64,000 nt of DNA from Azospirillum humicireducens. Its GTDB lineage: Bacteria; Pseudomonadota; Alphaproteobacteria; Azospirillales; Azospirillaceae. The notes below the pieces were generated by a model. That model ran no database searches, was not told the origin of the DNA, and saw only the letters and a list, made by a program, of their open reading frames with translations. Below, piece after piece: positions 488-25,534 of this stretch. The stretch spans positions 488,501 to 552,500 of the forward strand of contig NZ_CP015285.1 in assembly GCF_001639105.2 (NCBI RefSeq), written 5' to 3'. Every line of letters begins with the position of its first letter. Positions within the stretch are counted from its first letter, which is position 1. The position numbers and the translations under genes are program-made.

Positions 488-700
488 AACCGTCATCGCG
501 ACACCGCTAAGCCATTGGAATTCCAAGGTTTTCTCGCGACCTTGGCGTCTACGGCGCGCCGCAACCAGGAGAAGAATAATGATCCCCCGTCAGAGGCGTC
601 AAGGCTGGATTTGGTGAACGCAGCGAAGGATGTAGGGGAACGGCCCAGAGGGCCGGGCCATCGGTCAGCCATCTGGGCTTATCGCTGAGCATCGGTTGAT

Positions 701-722
701 GGGCGGGGGCATGCCCCCGCCC
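701..722. terminator. Perfect 22-nt GC palindrome after helicase gene
   Basis: The half GGGCGGGGGCA is followed directly by its reverse complement, four bases past the stop of the helicase gene. It can form an 11-bp stem with almost no loop and has no T tract. A transcription end, an mRNA stabiliser or a protein-binding palindrome are all possible. Confidence 0.5.
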
Positions 723-726
723 GTGA

Positions 727-2184
727 TCATGCGGCGTGCTTGGCTGCCAAAATGTCCTGGATGGTGAGCACCTGGGCGGATGGTTTCGGCCGACTACTGC
801 TCTTTGCCTGGGCATCGGTTGCCGTGAACCGGTATTCGCTCCGGCCGCCGCGACTCCGGTGTTCAAGCCGGTCGTCCTGGCACAGCTTCATCTCCTTCGC
901 GAACTTCACGACGCTGTAGCGTTCGGCCGGGAAGAACGTCTCCCGCCATTCCTCGAAGTGGTCGGCGAACAGGGATGCGCAGGTGGTCCAGGAGTCCGGG
1001 ATGTGGACGTCGGAATCGAGCCATTGTTCAACCGGGGTCCGATACCGCTGTCCCGCTTGCTCACCCCGGATCAGCGCATAGACGTCGCCTTCAAACGCCG
1101 GGGCCTCGGCGTCCTCGTCCACCGAGCGCCAGAAAGCCATGGCGTCCAACTTGCGGATCGCGGCAAGGTCGATCCTGTCGCACACGTTAATCTGGAAGAA
1201 CCGGCGATTACCGCTGGGATCCATGATCAAGGTGTCGAGGTCAAAGTTCCCGCAGCCGATAAACGTCGAGATGATCTCCCGCTTCCCGGCCTCTTGATAA
1301 AGCTGTCGGAATTGCTGGGATCGGCTGGTCATCAACCCTTTCACCTTGTTCACCTCCGAACGCCGGGCATTCGCCATCTCGTCGAAGAAGATGATCGGCA
1401 TGGTGGTGAGGTCCATCATGCGGCTCTGATCTTCCAGCATATCGAAGGACGTGGCCGTCACGGCTTCCTCGACAGGGTTGATCAGATGCTCAACAGTCGT
1501 GGTCTTTCCACAGCCTTGGACCCCCATGAGATACGGCATGATGTGGGTCCGGTAATGGATCGTCCCACGCATCGCGTTCTTCACCCGGTGAACCCAGTTC
1601 CTCAGCACAGCTTTGGCCGCCTCTCGATGTGTCGGGTTATTGACGGTGTTGTGAAAGAGGAGGTCGAGGATACGGTCAAAGACGGTGGTGTCGGCCGCCG
1701 GGTCGAACTTCACCCGCTCGTAGCAGGCTTGCAGAGCCTCTTTGTGCGCCAGCCGCCGCCATTCGGCCCAGGCGCCGTTGAGCGGATTGACGGCAGCGAA
1801 CGCCCCATGGTCGCCGGTCCAGATCGCGATCTGGTTTCGGACATCGGCGCTGCCAACGGTCTGGCCCTTGGCGTCGATGAACGTTCCGTCCACCTTCATC
1901 CGCAAGTCACGCGACTCGATGAAGGCGGAGATGAAGTCGATGAGGCCGTCAGGATAGCGGCCGAGATCGGCGGTGATCCGCCATCCCCGAACCATGTCGG
2001 CAGCCTCCCGCTTCGGCAGGCCGGAACGCTCCTCCATGGTGCGGCGCACATCGGCCCACAGCCAGGACGGCGCGTCATTGGCGGCCTTGGCCGCTTCGGC
2101 GAACCGAAGGATGTCCTCCGGTGTTGCCGTCCATCGCCCAGGCTGTTGGTTCCACTCGTTGATGATGTCGTGCAGGTCCATCAT
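727..2184 (-). CDS. VirE-family SF3-like helicase/ATPase (left copy)
   Basis: 485 aa. Probable replicative helicase or primase-associated ATPase of the virulence-associated E (PF05272) type, as found on phages, satellites and plasmids. The P-loop is GVQGCGKTTT in the middle of the protein. Walker B is IIFFDEMANA. The VirE-type block follows, with VNKVKGLMTSR, FRQLY, a sensor-like IGCGNFD and DPSGNRRFF. The start chosen is the ATG whose ATGA overlaps the primase stop, which is translational coupling; a longer upstream frame exists but runs into the primase gene. It is identical to the copy at 23929-25386. Being paired with a primase argues for self-replication of the element rather than virulence. 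Confidence 0.85.
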   Translation of the reverse strand: MMDLHDIINEWNQQPGRWTATPEDILRFAEAAKAANDAPSWLWADVRRTMEERSGLPKREAADMVRGWRITADLGRYPDGLIDFISAFIESRDLRMKVDGTFIDAKGQTVGSADVRNQIAIWTGDHGAFAAVNPLNGAWAEWRRLAHKEALQACYERVKFDPAADTTVFDRILDLLFHNTVNNPTHREAAKAVLRNWVHRVKNAMRGTIHYRTHIMPYLMGVQGCGKTTTVEHLINPVEEAVTATSFDMLEDQSRMMDLTTMPIIFFDEMANARRSEVNKVKGLMTSRSQQFRQLYQEAGKREIISTFIGCGNFDLDTLIMDPSGNRRFFQINVCDRIDLAAIRKLDAMAFWRSVDEDAEAPAFEGDVYALIRGEQAGQRYRTPVEQWLDSDVHIPDSWTTCASLFADHFEEWRETFFPAERYSVVKFAKEMKLCQDDRLEHRSRGGRSEYRFTATDAQAKSSSRPKPSAQVLTIQDILAAKHAA

Positions 2185-3146
2185 GCCGCCCCTCCCATGG
2201 CCCGCGCTTGACGGCGGCGGATACGGTCGAGGAGCCGGGGATCGCGCCGGAACGGTTCCGGGGCCGGTTGACGTGCGATGAAATTGAGCGCGTGCTCGGC
2301 TTCCCGGCGCGTCCCTGTTCGAGGGCGGGCCTTGCCGCTGGCCCCGTCCATCATCAAGGCCAACGCCTCCAGATCGGCCGCCGTGATCGAGACGCCGAGG
2401 AACCGTGCTCTCGCCGCGATCCGACACATGAACTTGTAGAACCGGCCGGAGCCAATGGGCGCGGAGAAGTATTCCTGCTGCATCTCCTCGGTCACCAGCG
2501 CCGTTGGATCGTCGCATGGCGGGGCCAGTCGCCACACGGTATCCGCAACGCTCGCTGGTGCCACGGTCGGAGCGGCAGGCACGGGGAAGGCAGCGATCAG
2601 GGCGTCAACGTCGAGGGCGGCGCCCTCCACCCGGCAGGCGAAACGGTTCTCGGCCCCGTCCCAAGCGGCCGGGATGAAGAAGACGCGGCTGGGATCTCGG
2701 GTCCGATGATCGAAGAGTCGGCCAAACCGTTGGTTGGCCGCCCACCAGAACGCATCGAACTCATTGATCTCCACCGGTCGGGACAGCGGCAAGATCAGCC
2801 GCATCCGATGATGGTCCGGCTTTGACTTGGTCGTTGAATGCAGGATGTACGGCAGATCGCCGAGCAGTTCCACGACATCCTCGAACCGCACCGAGCGGGC
2901 CGGATCATCGTTGTCGAGGTCGAAGGCCGCAAAGCTCCATCGAGCGACGGCATCCTTGCGGCGGGTGGCGCCGGGTTGGAACTCGGCAGGCGAGATGGTT
3001 GGGACGGTCCCGGCGTCCTTGGCGCTCGGCGGCCGGGCGATCAAGCTCCAAGCGTGGAGGCGGTCGCAGGCTTCGCGCCAGGAAAGGGTATCGTAGGTTG
3101 GGATGGTGTCCCGGATCGTCGGGAAGAAGCTCCAAGTAATAAGCAT
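2181..3146 (-). CDS. Archaeo-eukaryotic primase-like (prim-pol) replication protein (left copy)
   Basis: 321 aa. A DLDND motif (AAFDLDNDD) near residue 70 could bind metal, and a block with HHRMRLILPLSRPV followed by RDPSRVFFIPA matches the pattern of AEP-type primases linked to mobile replicons. The family call is from motif layout, without a search. The start at 3146 (MLITWSFFPTIRDT) is preferred over one 19 codons upstream because that extension would be read through the 11-bp stem hairpin at 3163-3190. The stop overlaps the helicase start by ATGA. Identical to 22967-23932. Confidence 0.7.
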   Translation of the reverse strand: MLITWSFFPTIRDTIPTYDTLSWREACDRLHAWSLIARPPSAKDAGTVPTISPAEFQPGATRRKDAVARWSFAAFDLDNDDPARSVRFEDVVELLGDLPYILHSTTKSKPDHHRMRLILPLSRPVEINEFDAFWWAANQRFGRLFDHRTRDPSRVFFIPAAWDGAENRFACRVEGAALDVDALIAAFPVPAAPTVAPASVADTVWRLAPPCDDPTALVTEEMQQEYFSAPIGSGRFYKFMCRIAARARFLGVSITAADLEALALMMDGASGKARPRTGTRREAEHALNFIARQPAPEPFRRDPRLLDRIRRRQARAMGGAA

Positions 3147-3162
3147 GTCGTTGCTCGTGAAT

Positions 3163-3190
3163 GCCCCGCATGGTGGCAGCCATGCGGGGC
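3163..3190. promoter_or_regulatory. Perfect 11-bp-stem hairpin in primase leader
   Basis: GCCCCGCATGG and its complement are separated by a 6-nt loop, ending 16 bp before the primase ATG. In the leader it could act as an attenuator, a repressor site or a copy-number control element. Same in the right arm at 22923-22950. Confidence 0.55.
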
Positions 3191-3451
3191 GGTTTTGGCA
3201 CACGACAAGTTTGGAGGCACGTTCCCGGCGTCAGATGGACGCCCGGCCTCGTGATGTATTTAGTTGGCGATAAAGTCGTGTGCTCCGCTCTGCCAGCGGT
3301 CCGCCTGCACGTATTTAAGGCGGAGATGGGTTCCGTTTGTCGATATCTTTCTCGTGCCCAGCGGATATTTCCTGGATCGACATTTGAATATTGACAATGG
3401 CGACGGTCCATTCGGTATAATCGTTGCCCCTGTCCGCTCCGCCGCTGGGGA

Positions 3452-3725
3452 GGTGGGGTCCACCCCACCGGGTGGTGGGGTTCACCTCACCAGCCAACCC
3501 AATGATATTGTTGATGAATTTCTGTTTGGTGGGGTAGGTGGGGTGATTTCTGGAAAGTCATGAGAGAAGAAGAGAAAAAGACAAGAGGTTCGGAAACCAC
3601 CCTCACCACCCCACCATCCCCACCATGATCCACACCAGACGGTGAGCAGTTCGTGATCACGGCAGGTCGGGCGTAGCCCTGGACCCCACCATCCACCGGC
3701 GCGGCGGGGAACCGCGTTCCCCACC
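3452..3725. other. Origin-like array of nine GGTGGGG/CCCCACC heptamers (left copy)
   Basis: Mirror of 22388-22661. The non-coding gap between recombinase and primase holds nine copies of one heptamer in both orientations. They include a double unit GGTGGGG-AT-GGTGGGG facing CCCCACC-TA-CCCCACC across about 65 bp that contains a long pyrimidine run. An AT-rich stretch lies next to the second double unit. Iteron-like repeats beside primase and helicase genes suggest an origin of replication; this is inferred. Confidence 0.55.
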
Positions 3726-3737
3726 GTCGCTCCACGA

Positions 3738-4334
3738 TCACGCCGCGACGGCAAGCTCCCCGATGGACGCCGCCTTCGCCGACCGAAGGGCCATGTAGTA
3801 GCTCGACCGCGAGATGCCGAGCGTCCGGCACGTCTCCGCGACCGGCGTACCAGCGTCGCTCGCCAACATGATCTGCCGGACCACGGCCGCCGTGACCTTG
3901 GACGGGCGGCCGAACTTCACCCCGCGTTGCCGGGCCACGGCGACACCGGCCTGCGACCGTTCCCGGATGAGGTTGCGCTCGAACTCCGCCAGCGTCGCCA
4001 AAACGCCCAGGATCATCCGGCCGGTGGCGGTGCTGGTATCGATCTGGTCCATCACCGAAACCAGCTTGGCGCCGCGACCCTCCACCTCTTCCACGATCTG
4101 GAGCAGATGGATCTGCGACCGGGCCAACCGATCCAGGCGCCACACCACCAGTTCATCGCCCGGCCGGAGCAGATCAAGGACGCGCCGCAGTTCCTCGCGA
4201 TCCCGGCGGGCACCGCTGGCCTTCTCCTTGAAGATGTCGCGATCATCGACCCCGCGCTTCAGCAAAGCGTCAAGCTGGAGCGCCCAGTCCTGTTCGCTCG
4301 TGGACACCCGCGAGTAGCCGTAAATCCTCCCCAT
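3738..4334 (-). CDS. Serine recombinase (resolvase/invertase family) with C-terminal HTH (left copy)
   Basis: 198 aa, the usual length for Hin/Tn3-type small serine recombinases. GYSRVSTSEQD near residue 10 holds the probable nucleophilic Ser, the WRLDRLARS block holds catalytic Args, and EFERNLIRERSQAG marks the long E helix. The last 50 residues form a Hin-like HTH (VAETCRTLGISRSSYY). The ATG at 4334 is chosen because the protein starts MGRIYGYSRVS as in the family; the frame runs further upstream but crosses the res-like sites and, in this copy, the cargo junction. It probably acts on the half-sites just upstream. Identical to 21779-22375. Confidence 0.92.
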   Translation of the reverse strand: MGRIYGYSRVSTSEQDWALQLDALLKRGVDDRDIFKEKASGARRDREELRRVLDLLRPGDELVVWRLDRLARSQIHLLQIVEEVEGRGAKLVSVMDQIDTSTATGRMILGVLATLAEFERNLIRERSQAGVAVARQRGVKFGRPSKVTAAVVRQIMLASDAGTPVAETCRTLGISRSSYYMALRSAKAASIGELAVAA

Positions 4335-4447
4335 GTCCAGAAACCCCCGTCCGGTTGTCTCTAATTTTCGCACGGATTTTCTGGACGTCAACCGCCGCAG
4401 TTCCACGTCATCTTCAGCACCGTCCAGAAACCCAAGAAATTCTGGAC
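4335..4447. promoter_or_regulatory. Res-like recombination/operator sites upstream of serine recombinase (left copy)
   Basis: Two inverted pairs of GTCCAGAA(A): one 26-bp site (4422-4447) and one 52-bp site (4335-4386) that ends at the base before the recombinase ATG. Paired half-sites of this spacing directly upstream of a small serine recombinase are the usual form of a res site, which also serves as the gene's operator. Confidence 0.6.
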
Positions 4448-4479
4448 AGGCCACCTCCCCTGGTGCCGCATGCCCTTTA

Positions 4480-4527
4480 CGTGGGACAGAAATACCACTC
4501 AGGATCTGCGTGGGACGGAAATACCAC
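4480..4527. repeat. Two 19-bp direct repeats near inner arm end (left copy)
   Basis: CGTGGGACNGAAATACCAC occurs twice (4480-4498 and 4509-4527), 29 bp apart start to start, with one mismatch (A or G at N). Each unit begins with GTGG-type and ends with CCAC-type bases, so it is partly self-complementary. It is a candidate protein-binding site such as a partition, iteron or transposition-end site. Confidence 0.6.
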
Positions 4528-4702
4528 GCGAAAAAATTGTGAAAAACATATTGACCCTCGGACCGCCCATGATAATATCTCCAACAACGCTGAACGGCGT
4601 TCAAAGCGCAATCATCAAACGCGCGACTGGCTCGCAAAACGACACGCCGCCAACATTCAACATGGAAACATTCCGTGAATGCATACATCTGGAGGATTGA
4701 AG

Positions 4703-4882: not shown

Positions 4883-4883
4883 C

Positions 4884-5420: not shown

Positions 5421-8400
5421 TTACTCTTCCTCGAACCCCTGCGATGTGAACTTCAGGGTGCGGCAATTCTCGGTGACGGTGCGGACCAGATGATCGCTCG
5501 CCCCGCTTGGCAAGACCGCATCGATCTCCAACGTCACCGTGACCTCCGCGCCGACAACCCCAACGAGGTGCGCGATGACCTCATTGGCAATCTCGCCCGC
5601 GTCGCGACCGACCCGCATTGCGTTGAGCGTGACCGTACCATGGAACCGCCGAAGGGATGGCGGAGCATCGACGATCACCTCAACGCCGCCTTCGGTTTTG
5701 ACGGGCATGCTTCCACCGCCGGAGGACGGAGGTACCGTTCCCTCACCCGGCGTCGGCGCCGGTGCCGTCACGGCGGTTTCGGAGGTATGCTGGGCGTCTG
5801 CAACGGTCGCTCTCACCAGCAGTCCATCCAGGCTATCCGGGGCCATGGTCGGCGGCTTTCCGCAGCGAAGTCCGCGATACCGCTTCGCAACCTCGTCGTA
5901 GCTGTCGGCGAAGGCAAAGGACTCCTGCTTCCACAGGAGCAGTCCAAGCCCATCCTGGATAGCGGCGGTAAGAACCGTCGTATCCCTCAGGCGCGGCAGG
6001 TAGATGTATTGCGCGAAATCCTGCGCGAGCTGCCGGATCTCGACATGATCGCCCCGCCATAGCGGCACCCGGTCCAACTCCATGCGCAGCCGGGTTCCCG
6101 CGATGGACGGGAAGAGAAGATCGGCACCACGCAGCTTCTTCGACGCGCGGGCGGCAAGCGGCTCCTGCCCGGTCAGGCGAAGCGCCTCCCAGGTCACCGG
6201 CGTTTGTGGGGTGTCCTGCACCGGCGTCAGGAGCCATTGATAGGCTTCCGGCAGCCGGGCGGCCACCGTGCCGTCCGCCGTCTTCAACTGCGTCTCGGCC
6301 TGCCGGACCTGATGCGGATCGAGGTTCAGCTGGTTCTTCTCGTCCAGAATGGACCACCAAGCGCAGTAACGGCGCGTCGCTTCGTCGAGGTCTTGCAGAC
6401 GGGCCTGATCGACCGCCAGAAAGGCCAGGGTGTTGCGGAACAGGCGCGGCCCGCTGCCGCGCGACTCCAGGATCGCCTTGGCCGCAGCTTCGGCCTTGTT
6501 CCCTTCCGCCTTGCTGTAGGGAAAATCGATGCCGAGCACCACCAGCCGGGCGTCCAGATCGTCCGGCACATCAGCGCCCGACTGTGGGAAGGGGTGAATG
6601 CGCCGGAAGTCGCCGGTGGAGCGCAGATCGAGACGGAGTCGGCGCTCGATTTCGGTGATGACCGGATCGGGGTTTCGTTTGAGTTGCTCCGCCCGGTCTT
6701 CCGCCATCTTGGTGACGGTCGGCTGGGTCGAATACCAATAACGCGCGCCGTCCTGGTAAAGGTAGGTCGCCGCCATCGCCAGCCGCCGCAGCGCGTCGCC
6801 GAACAGCGACGGCGTCTCGCCGGGCATGACGCAGCCCAGTTTGATCCGACGATCCTCCAACCCCCGGTTGGCGGCGGTCGAGGTCGGAGCGGACCCCAGA
6901 TACACGGTGCGGGCGACGCGCCGCGTCGCCGCGAACTTGCCCAAGTTGGTATTGCTAGCGTCGATCTGGAGCGGCAGGGCGCTCGTCCCATCCACGTCCT
7001 TCTCGATGATCGGCTTCCAATCGTCGGACAGGTAGCGGGTCAGTTCGTCCCGCACACGCGGATCGTCTATGGGCAGGTTGCCCGGCATGATCAGCGGGTT
7101 GCGGTCGCCCTTTTCCCACAGGCTATGGATCACGGCGGCCATCAGGCGCAGCACGCCACGGGTGCGCTGGAACTTGGGCTGGGTCGACCAGTCGCCATAG
7201 AGCCGGTCGAACACCTCCGGGTGGATCGGATAGGCGGCCTTCATCCGGCCTTCATACGGGGAGTCCCGGCATTCCGGCGGGAATTCCTGGTGCTGGGTAC
7301 GGTAGACGTCATGGAACGCGCTCGCCACCGTATCGCGGGAGACGAACTGTGCCTTGTCGATCAGCGGTTCGAACAGGCGGCGGCGGACGATCTCGAAGCC
7401 TTCCTCCGTGCTGGCCGGTGCCCAGGAGGATTCAACGCGACCGATCACGTTTCGCAGCCGCGCCAGCGCCGCCCGGCCGCGCTCGCCGCCCACCTCCTCG
7501 TCGGCGCCCACCGCATGGGGCGAGGTGCCGGTGTCGGAGGCGGGAAGGCTGATGACCAGCAGGCAGTGCTTCGCCAACTTGGCCGATTCGGTCAATGCCT
7601 GGGCGAAGCTGAAATGGGTTTCGAAGCTGCCGCCGGGCAGGTCCGGGTCGTCGTGGAGCTGACGGGCGTAGGCCACCCATTCGTCGATCAGGATCAGGCA
7701 GGGGCCATATTCGTTCATCAGCTCCCGCAACGTGTCGCCGGGGCTGGTGGCCCGTTCGTCATCCGCCCGCAGCCGTGCGAAGGCCGCAGCGCCGCCAAGC
7801 TGCCATGCCAGCTCGCCCCACAGGGTGCGGACCACGGTGCCGTCCGGCTTCACGCTGGGGTTGCCGGGGGAAATCTTGTTGCCGACCAGCACGACCCGGC
7901 GCACCGACGGGGGCAGGCTCTTCACCTCCGATTCGATCAGCAGCGGCTCCACCCCCAGCAGATCCCCTGGTGGCATGCCGGAGAACAGGTGGTAGAGGGC
8001 CAGCATCGAGTGGGTCTTGCCGCCACCGAAGTTGGTCTGCAACTGCACGACCGGGTCGCCGCCCTGGCCGGTTAGCCGCCGCATCGCGCCGGTCAGCAGG
8101 CTCTTCAGGCTTTCGGTCAGGAAGGTGCGGCGGAAGAACTCCGCCGGGTTGCGGTATTCGTCTGAGCCTTCGCCGAGATGGACCTGCCACAGATCGGCGG
8201 CGAATTCGGCCTGCTGGTAACGGCCGCTCGCCACGTCGCGGTGCGGCGCCACCACCTCCCGCCAGGGCTTCAGGCTGCCGGTGACCTGACTTTCGATGGC
8301 GGTGCCCGCGCCCTTGCGTTTCTCCGACCGCATCTGCTCGTCGAAGATCAGGCGGCGCAGTTCCATCTTCATCCGCCCGACTTCATCGGCCTGCGGCGCC

Positions 8401-8768
8401 GACACGGCGGTGAGCAGGCGGGCGATGCTGTCCAGCGCCCGGTCGGCATCGTCGCTTGAAAACGGCTTCTGGTGCGCCCAGCCGTTGCGATGGCCGCGAA
8501 TCTCCCCGACCAGCCCGCGTTCGGCGGGGCCGAGCGTGGCACGGAAAACGTCGTTCCACGACTCCCACATCAGCTTCAGCAGTGCCGCCGCGTCCCAGTC
8601 CGGGATCGGCCGGTTGCGGGTCATCGGGTCTTCGTTGAAACCGACCAGCGCTGGAATGGCGACGGCGCGTTTCAGCGCGCTGCCGATCTCGCGTTCGATG
8701 AAGGGGCCGAGGCCGGAGCGTAACAGGTCGAGCGCCTTGCCCACGCGCTCCTGGTTGGTCAGTGCCAT
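5421..8768 (-). CDS. DUF499 (COG1483) P-loop ATPase with N-terminal Swt1-like HEPN domain
   Basis: 1,115 aa. Residues about 60-130 look like the Swt1-type HEPN domain, with RNGWAH (about 94-99) fitting the RNxxxH motif of HEPN ribonucleases. Residues about 240-260 carry the P-loop FGGGKTH and about 330-345 the Walker B-like LILIDEW, as in DUF499 ATPases. The C-terminal third (after about 970) has a linker rich in Pro/Gly and a small beta-rich domain. The family is known beside DUF1156 methylases in defence islands. It is last in the six-gene operon, 21 bp after the methylase, with a GGAG ribosome site. A working model is infection sensing by the ATPase part and RNA cleavage by the HEPN part; this is inferred. 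Confidence 0.85.
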   Translation of the reverse strand: MALTNQERVGKALDLLRSGLGPFIEREIGSALKRAVAIPALVGFNEDPMTRNRPIPDWDAAALLKLMWESWNDVFRATLGPAERGLVGEIRGHRNGWAHQKPFSSDDADRALDSIARLLTAVSAPQADEVGRMKMELRRLIFDEQMRSEKRKGAGTAIESQVTGSLKPWREVVAPHRDVASGRYQQAEFAADLWQVHLGEGSDEYRNPAEFFRRTFLTESLKSLLTGAMRRLTGQGGDPVVQLQTNFGGGKTHSMLALYHLFSGMPPGDLLGVEPLLIESEVKSLPPSVRRVVLVGNKISPGNPSVKPDGTVVRTLWGELAWQLGGAAAFARLRADDERATSPGDTLRELMNEYGPCLILIDEWVAYARQLHDDPDLPGGSFETHFSFAQALTESAKLAKHCLLVISLPASDTGTSPHAVGADEEVGGERGRAALARLRNVIGRVESSWAPASTEEGFEIVRRRLFEPLIDKAQFVSRDTVASAFHDVYRTQHQEFPPECRDSPYEGRMKAAYPIHPEVFDRLYGDWSTQPKFQRTRGVLRLMAAVIHSLWEKGDRNPLIMPGNLPIDDPRVRDELTRYLSDDWKPIIEKDVDGTSALPLQIDASNTNLGKFAATRRVARTVYLGSAPTSTAANRGLEDRRIKLGCVMPGETPSLFGDALRRLAMAATYLYQDGARYWYSTQPTVTKMAEDRAEQLKRNPDPVITEIERRLRLDLRSTGDFRRIHPFPQSGADVPDDLDARLVVLGIDFPYSKAEGNKAEAAAKAILESRGSGPRLFRNTLAFLAVDQARLQDLDEATRRYCAWWSILDEKNQLNLDPHQVRQAETQLKTADGTVAARLPEAYQWLLTPVQDTPQTPVTWEALRLTGQEPLAARASKKLRGADLLFPSIAGTRLRMELDRVPLWRGDHVEIRQLAQDFAQYIYLPRLRDTTVLTAAIQDGLGLLLWKQESFAFADSYDEVAKRYRGLRCGKPPTMAPDSLDGLLVRATVADAQHTSETAVTAPAPTPGEGTVPPSSGGGSMPVKTEGGVEVIVDAPPSLRRFHGTVTLNAMRVGRDAGEIANEVIAHLVGVVGAEVTVTLEIDAVLPSGASDHLVRTVTENCRTLKFTSQGFEEE

Positions 8769-16564: not shown

Positions 16565-16565
16565 C

Positions 16566-17444
16566 TCAAGCAACCCCATGAAGCTGTTGGGACGCGGCGC
16601 CGATGGCGTCGCGGTTCAAAAGGACGATTTGTTGATCCTGCGGTCGGCGTGCGGAAGGGTCGGTGTCGATGCCCAGACGCTTCAGCGTGTAATAGAGAAG
16701 CGCCCGGCGTACCCGGACCTCCGCCCGCCCATCGACCATGCCGTAATCGCGCCCTATCGCCGCGTGCTGGGACGCGGATAGAGCCGGATGAGGGCCGATT
16801 TCGAGCGCCACGTCCTCATGCCAATCCGTGTCGTCAGCGGGGTTCGTCGACGCGGGAGTCAGCGTCCTGGTCTCCAGGATCCTGGGGAGCACAAAGTCCT
16901 TGAACCGGCCATCGGCGCAGCAAAATGCACGCGCATGCCAACGGAAGCCGTCATGGGCTATCGCGTGTGGTTCAATCCAGCGCCACGTGGGTTCCACGCG
17001 CGACATGGACTGGTAATGGATCTCCACCGCCTCGTGGCCGTGGATGGCTCCTATGATGGTCCGAAGGACGCTCGCGTTGACCGTTCTGGCAAGTACCGGC
17101 AGGACACCGAATGGAGGCAGACGAGGCAGCCAGCATTCCGATTGGCCCAACACCGCCTCCGAAACCAGACGAAGCTGCGAGAGGTATTGTTCGGCGTCTG
17201 GGCGGAAGAAGATCGGTGCGAAAGACGGAGAGCGGACGTATGCTTTGGCATGGGTGTCATAGGACATGTTGCCCGGTGCCATGGCAAGGTAGCGCCGCAG
17301 ATCGGCGGATGCCTGCTGGATCGAGATGCCGAACATGCCCGTCAGGTCGGCGCGGTTAGCGTGACCGTCCCAGAACAGGCGGAACTCGATGAATTCGAGC
17401 CGCCGTTCAATTCCCCACCGTAGCTTCGCAGGAAGCTGCTCCAC
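16566..17444 (-). CDS. WYL-domain transcriptional regulator of the defence operon
   Basis: 292 aa. An N-terminal winged helix-turn-helix (ANRADLTGMFGISIQQASADLRRYL, about 32-56) is followed by a WYL-like domain (VEIHYQSMSR to FRWHARAFC near 145-180) and a C-terminal extension, the layout of BrxR/CapW-type repressors found at the head of defence operons. It is the first gene, and the helicase start follows 1 bp after its stop. The start is GTG at 17444; the same frame is closed upstream by a stop, and no ATG lies near. It likely represses the operon by binding near 17504-17513 and lets go on infection; the ligand is unknown. Confidence 0.85.
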   Translation of the reverse strand: MEQLPAKLRWGIERRLEFIEFRLFWDGHANRADLTGMFGISIQQASADLRRYLAMAPGNMSYDTHAKAYVRSPSFAPIFFRPDAEQYLSQLRLVSEAVLGQSECWLPRLPPFGVLPVLARTVNASVLRTIIGAIHGHEAVEIHYQSMSRVEPTWRWIEPHAIAHDGFRWHARAFCCADGRFKDFVLPRILETRTLTPASTNPADDTDWHEDVALEIGPHPALSASQHAAIGRDYGMVDGRAEVRVRRALLYYTLKRLGIDTDPSARRPQDQQIVLLNRDAIGAASQQLHGVA

Positions 17445-17895: not shown

Positions 17896-18471
17896 CTATT
17901 TACCGTGAGGGATTCTTCCGTTGGAAACAGGGCGGATCGAGAGAACATGCTGGACCTGCTGTGGGTTCAGCAGCGCACCGGGGCGAGCAGCACGTACCAG
18001 ACGGGTGGCGTCGTCGGCCAGGGTGCCAAGTTCGACCAGCAGGCGGGCTGCGATCATCCCAGACCGTCCGCGCCCAGCCCGGCAATGTACCAGCACCCTT
18101 TCGCCACAACGCAGGCGATGCCGCACCTCGGGACCAGCCAGCGCCCAGGTTTTCTCGAACTCCTCGTCAGGTGGATGCTGGTCGAAGATCGGACAGCGGA
18201 ACAGATCGATACCATGCAGCCCAGCTTCATGCGCAAGGCGCTCAACCCCAAGAACGCGGGTTTCGCGCGGCGTCAAAAGCGAGATGATGGCATTTGCCCC
18301 CCATCTGCGGATGGCTTGGAGGTCGGCGGCCATGTCGCGATTCCACCCACCGGATACTGGATCGCGATCCTTGCGGCCTGGACAAAAGGTGACCCCAATA
18401 TGACCGGCGGCGCCGGGCACCGGCACCTCCACGATCTCCATCGGGTGCGTCGCGCTCGTGCAGAGAATCAT
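17896..18471 (-). CDS. Cys-dependent (dual-specificity/tyrosine-type) phosphatase
   Basis: 191 aa. VHCRAGRGRSGM at about residues 128-139 is the CX5R loop with nucleophilic Cys and Arg, and an upstream FDQHPPDEEF segment may give the general acid. The rest fits the small dual-specificity phosphatase fold. GGAGG sits 5 bases before the ATG at 18471, and the start overlaps the stop of the cyclotransferase-like gene by 4 bp, so the two are coupled. The substrate may be a phosphoprotein, a nucleotide or another phosphate ester; this cannot be told from sequence. Confidence 0.82.
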   Translation of the reverse strand: MILCTSATHPMEIVEVPVPGAAGHIGVTFCPGRKDRDPVSGGWNRDMAADLQAIRRWGANAIISLLTPRETRVLGVERLAHEAGLHGIDLFRCPIFDQHPPDEEFEKTWALAGPEVRHRLRCGERVLVHCRAGRGRSGMIAARLLVELGTLADDATRLVRAARPGALLNPQQVQHVLSIRPVSNGRIPHGK

Positions 18472-18836
18472 CGACGCCTCCAAATCTTTGTTACGCCATC
18501 CGGCAACGGGGCAATCGGCTTCGATCCGGTGTCCGGCTCAATCAGAACGTAGAGCCAGCACTCAACCTCACCGGTTCTCGTGAATATCATTTCAGCGATG
18601 CGCTCGTAGAAAATTCCATTTCCCTCGACGAGATCGACCTCATCAAGAGTGCGCCGATTCACTTGGTATATCTCGCCCTGAACATGGAAACGACCCGGCC
18701 GCACCATTGCCGGAAAATCCCCAAGATCAACGAGATCGAATTCTGGCCGAGTTCGCCCCTCTCCGAAAAATCTTGTACCTTGCAGATATGAGTGATTGTG
18801 AAATCCGCGCCTCAAACTGCCGTAGACGAACAGCAT
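18468..18836 (-). CDS. Gamma-glutamylcyclotransferase-like (GGCT/AIG2) protein
   Basis: 122 aa. MLFVYGSLRRGFHNHSYL is the GGCT signature (YGSL and the following RxGxxN), and VEGNGIFYER near residue 72 has a candidate catalytic Glu. The start at 18836 is decided by AAGGA 7 bases upstream and by the family N-terminus; the frame is open for 47 codons further up. Members cyclise gamma-glutamyl amines or peptides to 5-oxoproline. In this setting it may act on a modified metabolite or a conjugate. It is coupled to the phosphatase by a 4-bp overlap. Confidence 0.8.
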   Translation of the reverse strand: MLFVYGSLRRGFHNHSYLQGTRFFGEGRTRPEFDLVDLGDFPAMVRPGRFHVQGEIYQVNRRTLDEVDLVEGNGIFYERIAEMIFTRTGEVECWLYVLIEPDTGSKPIAPLPDGVTKIWRRR

Positions 18837-18880
18837 CCCGCTGTCCTTCTTCGGCATCCTCTTCAAGAGCGGCATGGCTT

Positions 18881-19261
18881 TCACAGGGAAGGGATGCAAG
18901 GGATCGGCAGGTCGACCATCCCGATGGATAGCAAATACTTGCGGAACCGCCTTTCGGTTTCGGCAATCAGAAGACAATGGCTGAACGAGTTCGGCGGGAA
19001 ATTATCACCGCGCTCGGAACGCATGGCGTGGAGCACCTCCTGGCGGAGTTTCAGATAGACGGCCATGTGGACATTGATTGCTGTCTGCCGCTCATTCCAT
19101 TTCAAGACGGCGACCGTTCGCGTAAACTCTCGTTCTTCGTCGAGCAACGGAAGGCCAGAACGCCGCCGCAAGCGGTTTCGGTCACAGACAGAAGTTTCGA
19201 TTCCTTGAAAGTCGGACTCCATATGAATGATCCCAAAGAGTGGAGAACAATAATAATGCAT
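18881..19261 (-). CDS. Hypothetical protein, 126 aa
   Basis: No family recognised. The product is basic, with helical-looking segments (AVYLKLRQEVLHAMRSERGD, then LIAETERRFRKYLLS). AGGAG lies 4 bases before the ATG at 19261; an ATG 13 codons later (MESDFQG) is an alternative. It sits in operon B between the DUF5131 gene (114 bp upstream) and the cyclotransferase-like gene (44 bp downstream). The antisense frame at 18977-19336 is also open, so the call has some doubt. Confidence 0.6.
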   Translation of the reverse strand: MHYYCSPLFGIIHMESDFQGIETSVCDRNRLRRRSGLPLLDEEREFTRTVAVLKWNERQTAINVHMAVYLKLRQEVLHAMRSERGDNFPPNSFSHCLLIAETERRFRKYLLSIGMVDLPIPCIPSL

Positions 19262-19375: not shown

Positions 19376-20221
19376 TCATGCCGCGATCCGCCCCTCGTGA
19401 ACCACCATCCCATGTGGTGGATCGGACTGCATGTCGAGTGGGTGTCCGGTGGATGGAAACTGGCGCCACAGTATGCCGTCCAGCATAGCGCCTCCCTTGC
19501 CATATCCGTCGTCCACGCCTTCCGGGTTGTTCTCAACCTTGCCCCACTGCTTGAAGAAGAACGGCGCCCCCCTGCGAATGCACTGGTCCCGGATATCTCT
19601 CACCCAATCGATGGAGCACGGCCGAGCACCGATTCCGCTTTCACCGCCCGCAATCACCCAATGAATGCTGTCCAGGTCCAGCGGCCCCACCGAACCAATC
19701 AGCGGTTCAATCGAAAGAAAGCGGGTGCGGGCTGGGATACGCCGAAGGTCATCAACCCGGCCCGTGACCTTTGCATTCTCGACAGACGTTCCAATCCAGA
19801 CGTGGTCACCGAGCCTCACATTGTGCTTGGCGATAAAATCGGCGGCATAGCCGGGGCGCTTTGTCAGAACCTGAAAGATGTGGTGCGGCAAACTATTCAT
19901 GATGTTAATAATGTCGAGCACGTCATGCTCATTAGCTTCTTCATAGAACAAGTCGGACATGCTGTTCACGAAATAGACGCTTCCCCGCTTATCGCCGACT
20001 GGCGCACGAAAGACTTTAGGCGAGTTGCGTCGGATGACCCCACTCCAGACCGCAGGCTTTCCCGGCTTGCGTTCCGTCAGACCCTTGTATTCTGGCCGAT
20101 TCCTCATTCCAGCCAATCGGTGCGCCATCTTCTGCGCATAGCAGTTGGTGCAACCCGCCGAAACGATTTTGCAGCCGATCAGCGGGTTCCAAGTCTTTTT
20201 AGTCCATTCGATGGTCGTCAT
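19376..20221 (-). CDS. DUF5131 (phage Gp37/Gp68) family protein
   Basis: 281 aa. It starts MTTIEWTKKTWNPLIGC and goes on with SAGCTNCYAQ, giving a C-x6-C-x2-C cluster near residues 17-27 that resembles the iron-sulphur cluster loop of radical SAM enzymes. VYFVNSMSDLFYEE, HIFQVLTKRPG, WIGTSVEN and IEPLIG are family hallmarks of Gp37/Gp68 proteins carried by phages and islands. The reaction is not known to me. GGAAA lies 7 bases before the second of two in-frame ATGs. It follows the 290-aa gene after 292 bp without a clear gene. Confidence 0.85.
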   Translation of the reverse strand: MTTIEWTKKTWNPLIGCKIVSAGCTNCYAQKMAHRLAGMRNRPEYKGLTERKPGKPAVWSGVIRRNSPKVFRAPVGDKRGSVYFVNSMSDLFYEEANEHDVLDIINIMNSLPHHIFQVLTKRPGYAADFIAKHNVRLGDHVWIGTSVENAKVTGRVDDLRRIPARTRFLSIEPLIGSVGPLDLDSIHWVIAGGESGIGARPCSIDWVRDIRDQCIRRGAPFFFKQWGKVENNPEGVDDGYGKGGAMLDGILWRQFPSTGHPLDMQSDPPHGMVVHEGRIAA

Positions 20222-20513
20222 CTTCATTTTCCTTCAAAAAAGTCGCGCGTCTTTGTTGCCGTCCGTCTTGTGGTGACATCGGCTTGAAAATCGTTTCGCG
20301 TGTTTTTGGTGGATCAGGCGGAACAAGCTCCGCCCCGGAGATCAATATTGCGTTCCCTGAGGCGGCTCCGACGGAATCCGCATCGTGGAAACTGCTTTGC
20401 TACTGATAATCCTTCGCCGTCGCCCTGGTCATGCCGTGACACCCGCCATCAGGCGGCGGTCGTCAACAAGGTGGAAGGTTTGGCGCCGGAGCGTCAAGAA
20501 GTGACCAATCGTT

Positions 20514-21386: not shown

Positions 21387-21585
21387 GGGTCTCCGTTATC
21401 CTCGTATCGGTTTCCATATCAAGAGTGCGCATTGAATAACGTTCGGTTCTGCGTGGAATCCAATCCAACGCCCGTTTTTTGAAGTTTCCGCATGTTGATG
21501 ATTGCGCTTTGAACGCCGTTCAGCGTTGTTGGAGATATTACCATGGGCGGTCCGAGGGTCAATATGTTTTTCACAATTTTTTCGC

Positions 21586-21633
21586 GTGGTATTTCCGTCC
21601 CACGCAGATCCTGAGTGGTATTTCTGTCCCACG
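21586..21633. repeat. Two 19-bp direct repeats near inner arm end (right copy)
   Basis: GTGGTATTTCNGTCCCACG at 21586-21604 and 21615-21633, with N being C then T. Same repeats as at 4480-4527. They lie 146-193 bp before the recombinase start and may bind an element protein. Confidence 0.6.
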
Positions 21634-21665
21634 TAAAGGGCATGCGGCACCAGGGGAGGTGGCCT

Positions 21666-21778
21666 GTCCAGAATTTCTTGGGTTTCTGGACGGTGCTGAA
21701 GATGACGTGGAACTGCGGCGGTTGACGTCCAGAAAATCCGTGCGAAAATTAGAGACAACCGGACGGGGGTTTCTGGAC
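21666..21778. promoter_or_regulatory. Res-like recombination/operator sites (right copy)
   Basis: Inverted GTCCAGAA / TTTCTGGAC half-sites at 21666-21691 (26 bp overall) and 21727-21778 (52 bp overall), the second abutting the recombinase ATG. Relative to the left copy these sites point the other way, so recombination between them would invert the cargo. Confidence 0.6.
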
Positions 21779-22375
21779 ATGGGGAGGATTTACGGCTACT
21801 CGCGGGTGTCCACGAGCGAACAGGACTGGGCGCTCCAGCTTGACGCTTTGCTGAAGCGCGGGGTCGATGATCGCGACATCTTCAAGGAGAAGGCCAGCGG
21901 TGCCCGCCGGGATCGCGAGGAACTGCGGCGCGTCCTTGATCTGCTCCGGCCGGGCGATGAACTGGTGGTGTGGCGCCTGGATCGGTTGGCCCGGTCGCAG
22001 ATCCATCTGCTCCAGATCGTGGAAGAGGTGGAGGGTCGCGGCGCCAAGCTGGTTTCGGTGATGGACCAGATCGATACCAGCACCGCCACCGGCCGGATGA
22101 TCCTGGGCGTTTTGGCGACGCTGGCGGAGTTCGAGCGCAACCTCATCCGGGAACGGTCGCAGGCCGGTGTCGCCGTGGCCCGGCAACGCGGGGTGAAGTT
22201 CGGCCGCCCGTCCAAGGTCACGGCGGCCGTGGTCCGGCAGATCATGTTGGCGAGCGACGCTGGTACGCCGGTCGCGGAGACGTGCCGGACGCTCGGCATC
22301 TCGCGGTCGAGCTACTACATGGCCCTTCGGTCGGCGAAGGCGGCGTCCATCGGGGAGCTTGCCGTCGCGGCGTGA
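21779..22375 (+). CDS. Serine recombinase (resolvase/invertase family) with C-terminal HTH (right copy)
   Basis: Same 198-aa protein as at 3738-4334: Ser in GYSRVSTSEQD, Args in WRLDRLARS, helix E, and a C-terminal HTH. Only the promoter-distal upstream DNA differs between copies, because the cargo junction lies 284 bp before the start. Both copies have intact catalytic residues, so either could serve the two res-like sites. Confidence 0.92.
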   Translation: MGRIYGYSRVSTSEQDWALQLDALLKRGVDDRDIFKEKASGARRDREELRRVLDLLRPGDELVVWRLDRLARSQIHLLQIVEEVEGRGAKLVSVMDQIDTSTATGRMILGVLATLAEFERNLIRERSQAGVAVARQRGVKFGRPSKVTAAVVRQIMLASDAGTPVAETCRTLGISRSSYYMALRSAKAASIGELAVAA

Positions 22376-22387
22376 TCGTGGAGCGAC

Positions 22388-22661
22388 GGTGGGGAACGCG
22401 GTTCCCCGCCGCGCCGGTGGATGGTGGGGTCCAGGGCTACGCCCGACCTGCCGTGATCACGAACTGCTCACCGTCTGGTGTGGATCATGGTGGGGATGGT
22501 GGGGTGGTGAGGGTGGTTTCCGAACCTCTTGTCTTTTTCTCTTCTTCTCTCATGACTTTCCAGAAATCACCCCACCTACCCCACCAAACAGAAATTCATC
22601 AACAATATCATTGGGTTGGCTGGTGAGGTGAACCCCACCACCCGGTGGGGTGGACCCCACC
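22388..22661. other. Origin-like array of nine GGTGGGG/CCCCACC heptamers (right copy)
   Basis: GGTGGGG begins at 22388, 22423, 22489, 22498 and 22644; CCCCACC begins at 22570, 22579, 22633 and 22655. The pairs at 22489/22498 and 22570/22579 have the same 9-bp step and face each other. The stretch between includes a pyrimidine run near 22530-22550, and the AT-rich stretch 22590-22615 follows. Best guess is a replication origin bound by the element primase, the helicase or a host factor. Confidence 0.55.
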
Positions 22662-22922
22662 TCCCCAGCGGCGGAGCGGACAGGGGCAACGATTATACCG
22701 AATGGACCGTCGCCATTGTCAATATTCAAATGTCGATCCAGGAAATATCCGCTGGGCACGAGAAAGATATCGACAAACGGAACCCATCTCCGCCTTAAAT
22801 ACGTGCAGGCGGACCGCTGGCAGAGCGGAGCACACGACTTTATCGCCAACTAAATACATCACGAGGCCGGGCGTCCATCTGACGCCGGGAACGTGCCTCC
22901 AAACTTGTCGTGTGCCAAAACC

Positions 22923-22950
22923 GCCCCGCATGGCTGCCACCATGCGGGGC
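22923..22950. promoter_or_regulatory. Perfect 11-bp-stem hairpin in primase leader (right copy)
   Basis: Stem 22923-22933 with 22940-22950 and loop CTGCCA, ending 16 bp before the primase ATG. Same sequence as 3163-3190. Confidence 0.55.
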
Positions 22951-22966
22951 ATTCACGAGCAACGAC

Positions 22967-23932
22967 ATGCTTATTACTTGGAGCTTCTTCCCGACGATCC
23001 GGGACACCATCCCAACCTACGATACCCTTTCCTGGCGCGAAGCCTGCGACCGCCTCCACGCTTGGAGCTTGATCGCCCGGCCGCCGAGCGCCAAGGACGC
23101 CGGGACCGTCCCAACCATCTCGCCTGCCGAGTTCCAACCCGGCGCCACCCGCCGCAAGGATGCCGTCGCTCGATGGAGCTTTGCGGCCTTCGACCTCGAC
23201 AACGATGATCCGGCCCGCTCGGTGCGGTTCGAGGATGTCGTGGAACTGCTCGGCGATCTGCCGTACATCCTGCATTCAACGACCAAGTCAAAGCCGGACC
23301 ATCATCGGATGCGGCTGATCTTGCCGCTGTCCCGACCGGTGGAGATCAATGAGTTCGATGCGTTCTGGTGGGCGGCCAACCAACGGTTTGGCCGACTCTT
23401 CGATCATCGGACCCGAGATCCCAGCCGCGTCTTCTTCATCCCGGCCGCTTGGGACGGGGCCGAGAACCGTTTCGCCTGCCGGGTGGAGGGCGCCGCCCTC
23501 GACGTTGACGCCCTGATCGCTGCCTTCCCCGTGCCTGCCGCTCCGACCGTGGCACCAGCGAGCGTTGCGGATACCGTGTGGCGACTGGCCCCGCCATGCG
23601 ACGATCCAACGGCGCTGGTGACCGAGGAGATGCAGCAGGAATACTTCTCCGCGCCCATTGGCTCCGGCCGGTTCTACAAGTTCATGTGTCGGATCGCGGC
23701 GAGAGCACGGTTCCTCGGCGTCTCGATCACGGCGGCCGATCTGGAGGCGTTGGCCTTGATGATGGACGGGGCCAGCGGCAAGGCCCGCCCTCGAACAGGG
23801 ACGCGCCGGGAAGCCGAGCACGCGCTCAATTTCATCGCACGTCAACCGGCCCCGGAACCGTTCCGGCGCGATCCCCGGCTCCTCGACCGTATCCGCCGCC
23901 GTCAAGCGCGGGCCATGGGAGGGGCGGCATGA
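22967..23932 (+). CDS. Archaeo-eukaryotic primase-like (prim-pol) replication protein (right copy)
   Basis: Identical to 2181-3146, 321 aa: AAFDLDNDD metal-site candidate, HHRMRLILPLSRPV and DPSRVFFIPA blocks. The C-terminal third is helical and Arg-rich (IARQPAPEPFRRDPRLLDR), which may bind DNA or the helicase. Coupled to the helicase by ATGA. Two intact copies in one element are unusual, since one would be enough for replication. Confidence 0.7.
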   Translation: MLITWSFFPTIRDTIPTYDTLSWREACDRLHAWSLIARPPSAKDAGTVPTISPAEFQPGATRRKDAVARWSFAAFDLDNDDPARSVRFEDVVELLGDLPYILHSTTKSKPDHHRMRLILPLSRPVEINEFDAFWWAANQRFGRLFDHRTRDPSRVFFIPAAWDGAENRFACRVEGAALDVDALIAAFPVPAAPTVAPASVADTVWRLAPPCDDPTALVTEEMQQEYFSAPIGSGRFYKFMCRIAARARFLGVSITAADLEALALMMDGASGKARPRTGTRREAEHALNFIARQPAPEPFRRDPRLLDRIRRRQARAMGGAA

Positions 23933-25386
23933 TGGACCTGCACGACATCATCAACGAGTGGAACCAACAGCCTGGGCGATGGACGGCAACACCGGAGGAC
24001 ATCCTTCGGTTCGCCGAAGCGGCCAAGGCCGCCAATGACGCGCCGTCCTGGCTGTGGGCCGATGTGCGCCGCACCATGGAGGAGCGTTCCGGCCTGCCGA
24101 AGCGGGAGGCTGCCGACATGGTTCGGGGATGGCGGATCACCGCCGATCTCGGCCGCTATCCTGACGGCCTCATCGACTTCATCTCCGCCTTCATCGAGTC
24201 GCGTGACTTGCGGATGAAGGTGGACGGAACGTTCATCGACGCCAAGGGCCAGACCGTTGGCAGCGCCGATGTCCGAAACCAGATCGCGATCTGGACCGGC
24301 GACCATGGGGCGTTCGCTGCCGTCAATCCGCTCAACGGCGCCTGGGCCGAATGGCGGCGGCTGGCGCACAAAGAGGCTCTGCAAGCCTGCTACGAGCGGG
24401 TGAAGTTCGACCCGGCGGCCGACACCACCGTCTTTGACCGTATCCTCGACCTCCTCTTTCACAACACCGTCAATAACCCGACACATCGAGAGGCGGCCAA
24501 AGCTGTGCTGAGGAACTGGGTTCACCGGGTGAAGAACGCGATGCGTGGGACGATCCATTACCGGACCCACATCATGCCGTATCTCATGGGGGTCCAAGGC
24601 TGTGGAAAGACCACGACTGTTGAGCATCTGATCAACCCTGTCGAGGAAGCCGTGACGGCCACGTCCTTCGATATGCTGGAAGATCAGAGCCGCATGATGG
24701 ACCTCACCACCATGCCGATCATCTTCTTCGACGAGATGGCGAATGCCCGGCGTTCGGAGGTGAACAAGGTGAAAGGGTTGATGACCAGCCGATCCCAGCA
24801 ATTCCGACAGCTTTATCAAGAGGCCGGGAAGCGGGAGATCATCTCGACGTTTATCGGCTGCGGGAACTTTGACCTCGACACCTTGATCATGGATCCCAGC
24901 GGTAATCGCCGGTTCTTCCAGATTAACGTGTGCGACAGGATCGACCTTGCCGCGATCCGCAAGTTGGACGCCATGGCTTTCTGGCGCTCGGTGGACGAGG
25001 ACGCCGAGGCCCCGGCGTTTGAAGGCGACGTCTATGCGCTGATCCGGGGTGAGCAAGCGGGACAGCGGTATCGGACCCCGGTTGAACAATGGCTCGATTC
25101 CGACGTCCACATCCCGGACTCCTGGACCACCTGCGCATCCCTGTTCGCCGACCACTTCGAGGAATGGCGGGAGACGTTCTTCCCGGCCGAACGCTACAGC
25201 GTCGTGAAGTTCGCGAAGGAGATGAAGCTGTGCCAGGACGACCGGCTTGAACACCGGAGTCGCGGCGGCCGGAGCGAATACCGGTTCACGGCAACCGATG
25301 CCCAGGCAAAGAGCAGTAGTCGGCCGAAACCATCCGCCCAGGTGCTCACCATCCAGGACATTTTGGCAGCCAAGCACGCCGCATGA
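23929..25386 (+). CDS. VirE-family SF3-like helicase/ATPase (right copy)
   Basis: Identical to 727-2184, 485 aa. The first 120 residues are helical and Trp-rich (WNQQPGRWT, then DAPSWLWADVRRTM). The ATPase core follows with GVQGCGKTTT, FFDEMANA and the SGNRRFF motif of VirE proteins, and the C-terminal 100 residues look like a winged-helix region as in SF3 replicases. The stop is followed after 4 bp by the 22-nt palindrome. Confidence 0.85.
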   Translation: MMDLHDIINEWNQQPGRWTATPEDILRFAEAAKAANDAPSWLWADVRRTMEERSGLPKREAADMVRGWRITADLGRYPDGLIDFISAFIESRDLRMKVDGTFIDAKGQTVGSADVRNQIAIWTGDHGAFAAVNPLNGAWAEWRRLAHKEALQACYERVKFDPAADTTVFDRILDLLFHNTVNNPTHREAAKAVLRNWVHRVKNAMRGTIHYRTHIMPYLMGVQGCGKTTTVEHLINPVEEAVTATSFDMLEDQSRMMDLTTMPIIFFDEMANARRSEVNKVKGLMTSRSQQFRQLYQEAGKREIISTFIGCGNFDLDTLIMDPSGNRRFFQINVCDRIDLAAIRKLDAMAFWRSVDEDAEAPAFEGDVYALIRGEQAGQRYRTPVEQWLDSDVHIPDSWTTCASLFADHFEEWRETFFPAERYSVVKFAKEMKLCQDDRLEHRSRGGRSEYRFTATDAQAKSSSRPKPSAQVLTIQDILAAKHAA

Positions 25387-25390
25387 TCAC

Positions 25391-25412
25391 GGGCGGGGGC
25401 ATGCCCCCGCCC
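25391..25412. terminator. Perfect 22-nt GC palindrome after helicase gene (right copy)
   Basis: Same palindrome as 701-722, centred on GGGCA/TGCCC. It lies 122 bp inside the outer arm end and could also be a protein-binding end signal. Confidence 0.5.
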
Positions 25413-25534
25413 ATCAACCGATGCTCAGCGATAAGCCCAGATGGCTGACCGATGGCCCGGCCCTCTGGGCCGTTCCCCTACATCCTTCGCTGCGTTCACC
25501 AAATCCAGCCTTGACGCCTCTGACGGGGGATCAT

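Follow-up and report, generated by a model that had tools for sequence, protein, structure and literature searches.

What kind of mobile element holds a set of defence-type genes between two almost identical, inverted arms? The question is raised by a stretch of 64,000 nucleotides from Azospirillum humicireducens (G000:C1:488501-552500, from here on the window), in which such arms lie next to the gene of a tyrosine integrase. An earlier note on this DNA had taken the arms for a pair of replication and recombination modules, each 4,040 bp long, and had suggested a new class of composite mobile element confined to window positions 579..25534. From the attachment (att) sites and from relatives of the element, we arrive at a different building plan: the locus is a 26.6-kb integrative island at the start codon of purB, which would excise as a circle with two inverted repeats and would probably (we put it at about 55%) use them to exchange its cargo as a block. 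Genomic islands with a tyrosine integrase and defence cargo are a known kind; what sets this one apart is the doubling of the complete attachment site, attP, in inverted orientation, together with the mirror arms, and in searches of the open-licence PubMed Central library no listed title or abstract dealt with elements of this type.

An integrative element at the start of purB

The limits of the element and its attachment sites are given by the following features, where LE denotes the integrase-side end of the element.

1..487, plus strand: 3' part of the tyrosine integrase gene (Pfam Phage_integrase 4.9e-13, Arm-DNA-bind_3 2.8e-12)
464..589, minus strand: inverted LE (115 bp) plus att core, forming with the left arm a complete inverted attP (sequence comparison)
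579..589, minus strand: internal att core, reading ATGATCCCCCG (CGGGGGATCAT in reverse complement), which closes the left arm on its outer side (core comparison)
579..4618, minus strand: left arm, 4,040 bp (self-alignment and exact alignment)
21495..25534, plus strand: right arm, 4,040 bp (self-alignment)
25524..25534, plus strand: attR core CGGGGGATCAT, the exact outer end of the right arm, with the chromosome directly after it (core comparison)

The complete integrase gene (G000:C1:487674-488987, 437 amino acids) starts to the left of the window, and its final codons fall within the inverted LE repeat. Its R, HxLR and Y positions, which we take to be the catalytic residues, are invariant across a four-row alignment of the family. 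The partner of the inverted LE and core lies at C1:487423-487548 (attL) and is identical to window positions 464-589 at 126 of 126 bases. The element thus contains three cores, attL on the plus strand (C1:487423-487433), the internal one on the minus strand and attR on the plus strand, and at the internal junction the order arm, core, LE is the sequence expected of an attP. The 11-bp core CGGGGGATCAT is the reverse complement of bases 1-11 of purB (TIGR00928, E 1.6e-150), the gene adjoining the integrase gene; a tRNA was considered as target and rejected, as none is present in the window or the left flank and the target is purB. At the junction, purB has received a new upstream sequence, AGGAGAAGAATAATG, whose AGGAG resembles a ribosome-binding site and may act as one.

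The right flank was matched in all 45 genomes of the genus (its own included), and the insertion site was fetched from 10 of the 44 others, picked by best right-flank match. In nine of these ten, the flanks are joined at a single core (with one mismatch in L034), so that the empty sites which the earlier note proposed to seek in related strains do exist, and the tenth site (L038, from genome G032) is occupied by a related element. We thus place the limits at C1:487423 and window position 25534, the starts of the two outer cores being 26,601 bp apart. This corrects the earlier delimitation, since attL and the larger part of the integrase gene are found to the left of the window. A tyrosine integrase, direct att repeats on either side and relatives with an empty site give the locus the hallmarks of a site-specific integrative element.

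Two mirror arms and their genes

The earlier note's equal-length inverted arms were borne out by self-alignment (579-4618 and 21495-25534, 4,040 nt each, with a spacer of 16,876 nt), and by exact alignment they differ at a single position out of 4,040, position 3994 counted from the core end. The A. humicireducens genome (6.86 Mb, 7 contigs) contains no further copy. Each arm contains the following features.

727..2184, minus strand: VapE-like helicase gene of the left arm (Pfam VapE-like_dom, E 2.7e-20)
2181..3146, minus strand: primase-like gene of the left arm (PHROG 9765 DNA primase, E 8.8e-26)
3204..3737, no strand: intergenic stretch of the left arm with nine GGTGGGG motifs, candidate origin (motif count)
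3738..4334, minus strand: serine recombinase of the left arm, 198 amino acids, DNA-invertase/resolvase type, reading towards att (PHROG 125, E 1.4e-62)
4423..4446, with mirror copy at 21667-21690, no strand: 24-bp palindrome upstream of the recombinase gene (TCCAGAA-N10-TTCTGGA), a candidate site for this enzyme (motif comparison)
21779-22375, 22967-23932 and 23929-25386, plus strand: recombinase, primase and helicase genes of the right arm (left-arm coordinates reflected)

The gene content agrees with the earlier note as regards the serine recombinase and the primase-like protein, whereas the helicase, called VirE-type there, should read VapE. The start codons of the helicase and primase genes are the analyst's choice, and the primase-like protein matched no Pfam family. 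The recombinase also matches Pfam Resolvase (E 2.7e-41) and, in the PDB, has a DNA invertase as its best match (3e-36), with gamma-delta resolvase at 2.1e-29. The array described as origin-like is indeed present: between primase and recombinase, GGTGGGG occurs nine times with both strands counted, whereas 1,000 mononucleotide shuffles gave 0.13 on average and never more than 3. The array is a possible origin.

Two near-identical inverted copies enclosing a cargo are also what a composite transposon would present, each 4,040-bp arm then being an autonomous mobile module. As DNA, the module was found nowhere else in its own genome and nowhere whole in the 44 other genus genomes, where a few candidates per genome were scored and 18 genomes gave only short matches of 27-390 bp; 404 plasmid records matched, the best covering 10% of the module and none 80%. 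Moreover, the outer ends of the arms are the core of the integrase, and the empty sites fit the whole element. A composite transposon is thus very improbable, and what survives of the proposed new class is a mobile element with defence genes between inverted arms, not the module as its building block. At the protein level, with the larger genome searches again scoring only a few candidates in each genome, the arm helicase was found in 1 of 385 genomes of the class at E 1e-20, namely A. humicireducens itself. At E 1e-5 it was found in five of the 45 genomes of the genus, its own among them, the best other match having 37% identity. In plasmids it gave one partial match (30% identity over 35% of the query), and in phages none. 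The arm primase was found in its own genome only among the 45 of the genus and not in plasmids, and the integrase was found neither in viral contigs nor, at E 1e-40, in plasmids.

The deduced circle

While the att sites can be read directly from the sequence, the circular form is deduced from them. Excision would join attL and attR in the order arm, core, LE, fusing arm and LE into an inverted repeat of 4,155 bp (4,040 + 126 - 11) present in two copies. The circle would then consist of an integrase half and a cargo half, divided by two mirror repeats with a complete attP in each. Integration through one attP would split its repeat at the core, and the other attP would stay whole, inverted, inside the element. 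This layout would explain why near-identical inverted repeats end exactly at att, because it is at the core that integration would split one of them.

In the integrated element, the internal attP and attR, inverted relative to each other, would bracket the cargo, such that the whole block of arm, cargo and arm could be exchanged between elements sharing one cell. Cargo flanked by inverted recombination sites is exchangeable as a block in recombinase-mediated cassette exchange, and the proposed process would be a natural form of it, with the integrase half staying in place. It would require the integrase to recombine inverted sites. Another tyrosine integrase is known to flip the DNA that lies between att sites of opposite orientation (PMC5495485), and PMC6109161 describes Rin as a tyrosine invertase of bifidophages. 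Inversion of the block, by the integrase or by the arm serine recombinase, would also be expected, and recombination between the mirror copies would keep these alike, as their identity suggests. Dimer resolution and flipping of the cargo are conceivable roles for the serine recombinase.

Relatives share the layout but not the arms

The integrase family is rare among the genomes searched. A scan of the genome collection with the integrase returned four loci, and a search with the integrase alignment (E 1e-100) was positive for three of the order's 82 genomes, three of 48 from the Microvirga group, 1 of 397 sampled from Microvirga's order and 1 of 385 sampled from the class; these sets overlap, and the family comprises six genomes altogether. 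The mirrored integrase end is present in five of the six members, although in two of these it does not reach the core, either because the contig ends first or because the mirror breaks off. Three members show both arms: A. humicireducens, Microvirga sp. VF16 and Roseomonas genomospecies 6.

In VF16, a complete chromosome, the element again lies at purB and measures 26,664 bp from core to core. Its inverted arms are 2,590 bp long and differ at 11 positions, ten of them in the innermost 30 bp and one in the core, and its LE plus core (353 bp) is mirrored with one difference. The cores of attL and the internal attP both read GACCAT and that of attR GATCAT, as would be expected if attR had kept the base of the host. 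The near-equality of the core-to-core length with that of A. humicireducens (26,601 bp), despite the unlike arms, may be chance or reflect a size limit. In Roseomonas (G037), the integrase end and a mirrored LE of 124 bp share one contig beside purB, and the right end is found on a separate contig, beside the same downstream gene as elsewhere, where the left arm is repeated in inverted orientation over 1,101 bp. The two arms differ at 36 of 1,101 positions, all confined to the interval 66-842, with 65 identical bp on the outer side and 258 on the inner. Many of the differences within the recombinase gene are spaced at multiples of three and the translations differ in two amino acids; both copies may be under selection. 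Finally, Microvirga pakistanensis has a mirrored LE of 111 bp that runs to the contig end. The paired layout with other cargo, which the earlier note had asked for, is thus found in VF16 and Roseomonas, on unlike arms.

The mirrored end is not general to integrases of these genomes, since an inverted repeat flanks the gene at five of five family loci given to the test and at none of six integrases from the same genus that are only distantly related (about 28% identity). This control used stretches of 9-13 kb, with the contig starting within 600 bp of the gene in two, and the five family loci did not include G032; one control integrase had a 31-bp inverted repeat on one side only. A version with shorter flanks missed VF16 and M. 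pakistanensis, where the far copy fell outside the stretch, and in it G032 gave just a 78-bp repeat at 82%.

These comparisons also bear on two simpler accounts of the arms. Near-perfect inverted repeats are hard to assemble, and a collapsed or duplicated repeat might mimic the layout; it is, however, seen in other assemblies as well, and the arms are distinguishable by one base in A. humicireducens, 11 in VF16 and 36 in Roseomonas, which makes an assembly artefact scarcely credible. Alternatively, the arms could be functionless by-products, inverted duplications arising from replication template switching and kept alike by ordinary homologous recombination. They are long enough for such recombination, nearly identical in A. 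humicireducens and VF16, and free to vary in length and gene content. Yet a mirror LE, a mirror core and an outward recombinase in both arms recur in three elements from two bacterial orders whose arms and cargo are unlike each other, and we therefore regard the by-product explanation as unlikely.

Evidence for replacement of the cargo block

A clue to what the layout might be used for comes from identities that conflict within one element. The integrase of A. humicireducens is 96% identical to that of Roseomonas and 67% to that of VF16, whereas its arm recombinase is 71% identical to that of VF16 and only 34% to that of Roseomonas. At the DNA level, A. humicireducens and Roseomonas agree at 95% and 94% in the two copies of LE plus core, 94% in the integrase gene and 91% in purB, and just past the internal core this drops to 17 of 25 bases. 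Since the groupings by integrase and by arm recombinase conflict, and since identity falls off past the core, the block of arm, cargo and arm must have been replaced relative to the integrase half. It is this record of incongruent identities that leads us to consider block exchange the most likely use of the double attP.

The mirror copies also appear to change in concert. The LE copies show no difference over 126 bp within A. humicireducens and none over 124 bp within Roseomonas, and are 94-95% alike between the two, whose mirrored layouts have ends 2 bp apart. Being identical within each element and about 5% different between them, the copies would have exchanged sequence after the elements separated.

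Several observations weigh against this interpretation. All of the evidence is assembled sequence, and no excision product, inversion isomer or exchange intermediate is among it; the family is small, with six genomes. Homologous recombination in the flank and the integrase could also swap the block, and the drop in identity at the core does not discriminate between the two routes. The 36 differences in 1,101 positions between the Roseomonas arms make homogenisation incomplete there. In a draft Microvirga genome (G475), the mirrored LE is just 98 bp long, and the 147 bp that remain before the contig end no longer match it. A further departure is the element of Azospirillum sp. TSH64 (G032), of which only the right end is seen. 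There, the recombinase near att is a 201-amino-acid outward tyrosine recombinase, 1.1 kb from the core, instead of a serine recombinase; no match to the arm serine recombinase was found within 60 kb to the left of the core, and no second arm was seen near the integrase (79% identity), which the scaffold puts at a distance of 2.8 Mb, with stretches of N on both sides.

As its integrase lies between runs of N, the scaffold placement in G032 is uncertain. The right end of its element (L045 7109-19238, C1 about 2.292-2.304 Mb) stands beside the core and the right flank and carries the BREX genes BrxB, BrxC and PglX. We rejected a decayed integrase or remnant as explanation in view of the flanking N runs, the BREX genes and an integrase without stops over profile positions 1-403 (one match counted two stops, the other search none over these positions). 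A BREX element with a different recombinase at this site cuts both ways for block exchange. A 77-amino-acid stretch of the Roseomonas cargo (L063 8595-8825) is 54% identical to the right end in G032.

Replication, inversion or exchange

The geometry of the deduced circle, with two inverted repeats that each hold a recombination site and divide two unique halves, follows from the att sites and arm alignments and invites comparison with the yeast 2-micron circle. In that plasmid, each of two inverted repeats holds the site of the tyrosine recombinase that the circle encodes. The element described here is bacterial, integrates at purB, carries defence cargo and has a second recombinase, and we claim no homology to the FLP/FRT system. 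By analogy, however, inversion by the integrase between the attP-bearing repeats during replication could turn one fork and yield many copies before re-integration. FLP sets 2-micron copy number by inversion, according to PMC5495485, and the arms of A. humicireducens do carry primase-like and helicase genes. On the other hand, the arms of VF16 gave no primase or helicase match, their remaining genes having no Pfam family above cut-off, and the 1.1-kb arms of Roseomonas leave little room for either. The only gene type of the A. humicireducens arms common to both two-armed relatives is the serine recombinase, and the primase and helicase are therefore not defining for the arms. As the relatives' arms yielded no recognisable replication genes, we place amplification second to exchange and think it rather unlikely.

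The shared gene suggests a further possibility, namely that the arms serve to switch the orientation of the cargo, with the arm serine recombinase acting on sites upstream of its gene in the manner of phage invertases. In all three two-armed elements, the outward recombinase begins 236-284 bp from the inner arm end; its best PDB match is a DNA invertase, and the 24-bp palindrome is common to the arms of A. humicireducens and VF16. Against this, a search of the Roseomonas arms for the palindrome pattern gave no hit, and the gamma-delta and Tn3 resolvases match nearly equally well. Resolvases normally do not invert, and we consider a dedicated switch quite improbable. The arm recombinase resembles serine invertases and resolvases (Gin, Tn3, gamma-delta) in size and family; what differs is that two near-identical recombinase genes are held in inverted arms, next to a tyrosine integrase.

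Block exchange thus remains our preferred reading. Compared with laboratory cassette exchange, the process would be natural, and incongruent identities are the only sign of it. If true, defence genes would turn over at one chromosomal site by block swap between inverted attachment sites, the integrase staying in place, and the circle of a bacterial integrative element would have the architecture of the yeast 2-micron plasmid. It is a more tentative proposal, one that we find possible rather than probable, that elements with double inverted attP make up a class of natural cassette-exchange vehicles, in which the integrase half is fixed at purB and defence blocks are swapped between elements and across bacterial orders through a 2-micron-like circular intermediate.

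Phage-satellite-like islands combine an integrase with a primase and a VapE-type helicase, and the same combination, as in phage-inducible chromosomal islands and P4-like satellites, is present here. Integrative and phage-satellite-like islands also share the end-located tyrosine integrase, the attL and attR core repeats, the gene-end target, the replication-type genes and the passenger defence genes, but the present element has in addition a second, inverted complete attP, long inverted arms and a cargo between inverted att sites. Among the element proteins scanned (a subset of the open reading frames), none matched packaging, capsid-remodelling, packaging-interference or relaxase functions.

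Look-alike loci

At G044:C1:716092-747887 (L085-L087), inverted arms of 2,854 bp that are 100% identical enclose about 26 kb, and each contains an outward serine recombinase (41% to that of A. humicireducens) and a 384-amino-acid protein without Pfam or NCBIfam match. A second locus, G027:C33 (L088-L089), is 98% identical to it over 29.6 kb, with a diverged second arm (83%); it encodes, among others, a RecD2-like helicase and proteins with a metallo-beta-lactamase fold and a flagellin domain. A stretch of 78 bp at a contig end raised the suspicion that this block may be inverted relative to its flank. No tyrosine integrase was recognised in the arms of these loci (a 29% match in G027 lies on another contig), and as there was no match to the C-terminal part of the integrase and the arm gene and cargo differ, we set both loci aside as family members. 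Mirror arms with serine recombinases may be more widespread as a theme. In L022/L039 (G018:C187) and L025/L040 (G022:C1), a VapE-like helicase gene occurs singly, close to a serine recombinase gene in convergent orientation; no long inverted repeat surrounds them, the only ones being two of 89-91 bp in L040.

The cargo between the arms

The block between the arms (16,876 nt) contains the genes listed below, the three-gene Hma set among them, in agreement with the 16.9 kb of defence-type genes of the earlier note.

5421..8768, minus strand: hmaC, AAA+ ATPase, DUF499, with N-terminal Swt1-like HEPN domain (PADLOC HmaC, E 0; Pfam HEPN_Swt1, 2.2e-31)
8790..11675, minus strand: hmaB, DUF1156 methyltransferase (PADLOC HmaB, E 0)
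11672..12484, minus strand: ASCH-domain protein, between hmaB and hmaA (Pfam, 2.4e-6)
12980..16579, minus strand: hmaA, SNF2/DEAD helicase with NOV_C domain (PADLOC HmaA, E 0; Pfam)
16566..17444, minus strand: WYL-domain regulator (Pfam, 3.6e-11)
18468..18977, minus strand: gamma-glutamyl cyclotransferase-like protein (Pfam GGACT, 7.4e-23)
19376..20227, minus strand: DUF5131 protein, PADLOC candidate family PDC-M41B (Pfam, PADLOC)

With HmaA, HmaB and HmaC genes together, the cargo is, by homology, predicted to serve anti-phage defence. Hma is described in PMC8565338 as a candidate defence system of helicase, methyltransferase and ATPase; relative to that description, all three components are matched here at E 0, hmaC has an additional N-terminal Swt1-like HEPN domain, and an ASCH protein and a 158-amino-acid protein stand between hmaB and hmaA. 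The HEPN domain comprises residues 11-123 of hmaC, outside the PADLOC HmaC match (165-1114), and is possibly a fused RNase-type effector.

The cargo of the relatives differs in kind. VF16 carries an HmaC/DUF499-related ATPase and an HmaB/DUF1156-related methyltransferase (28% and 26% identity) with a PbeA-like SNF2 helicase, and the visible part of the Roseomonas cargo has a type III methyltransferase and restriction enzyme and a DrmD-like helicase. By homology, the cargo of all four members (Hma, Hma-related, type III restriction-modification and BREX) would thus be of defence type.

At window positions 19376-21386, the DUF5131 protein, which has a weak NCBIfam match to a radical-SAM mobile pair, under cut-off, adjoins a 290-amino-acid protein without family match, and the two are possibly a second small defence pair within the cargo.

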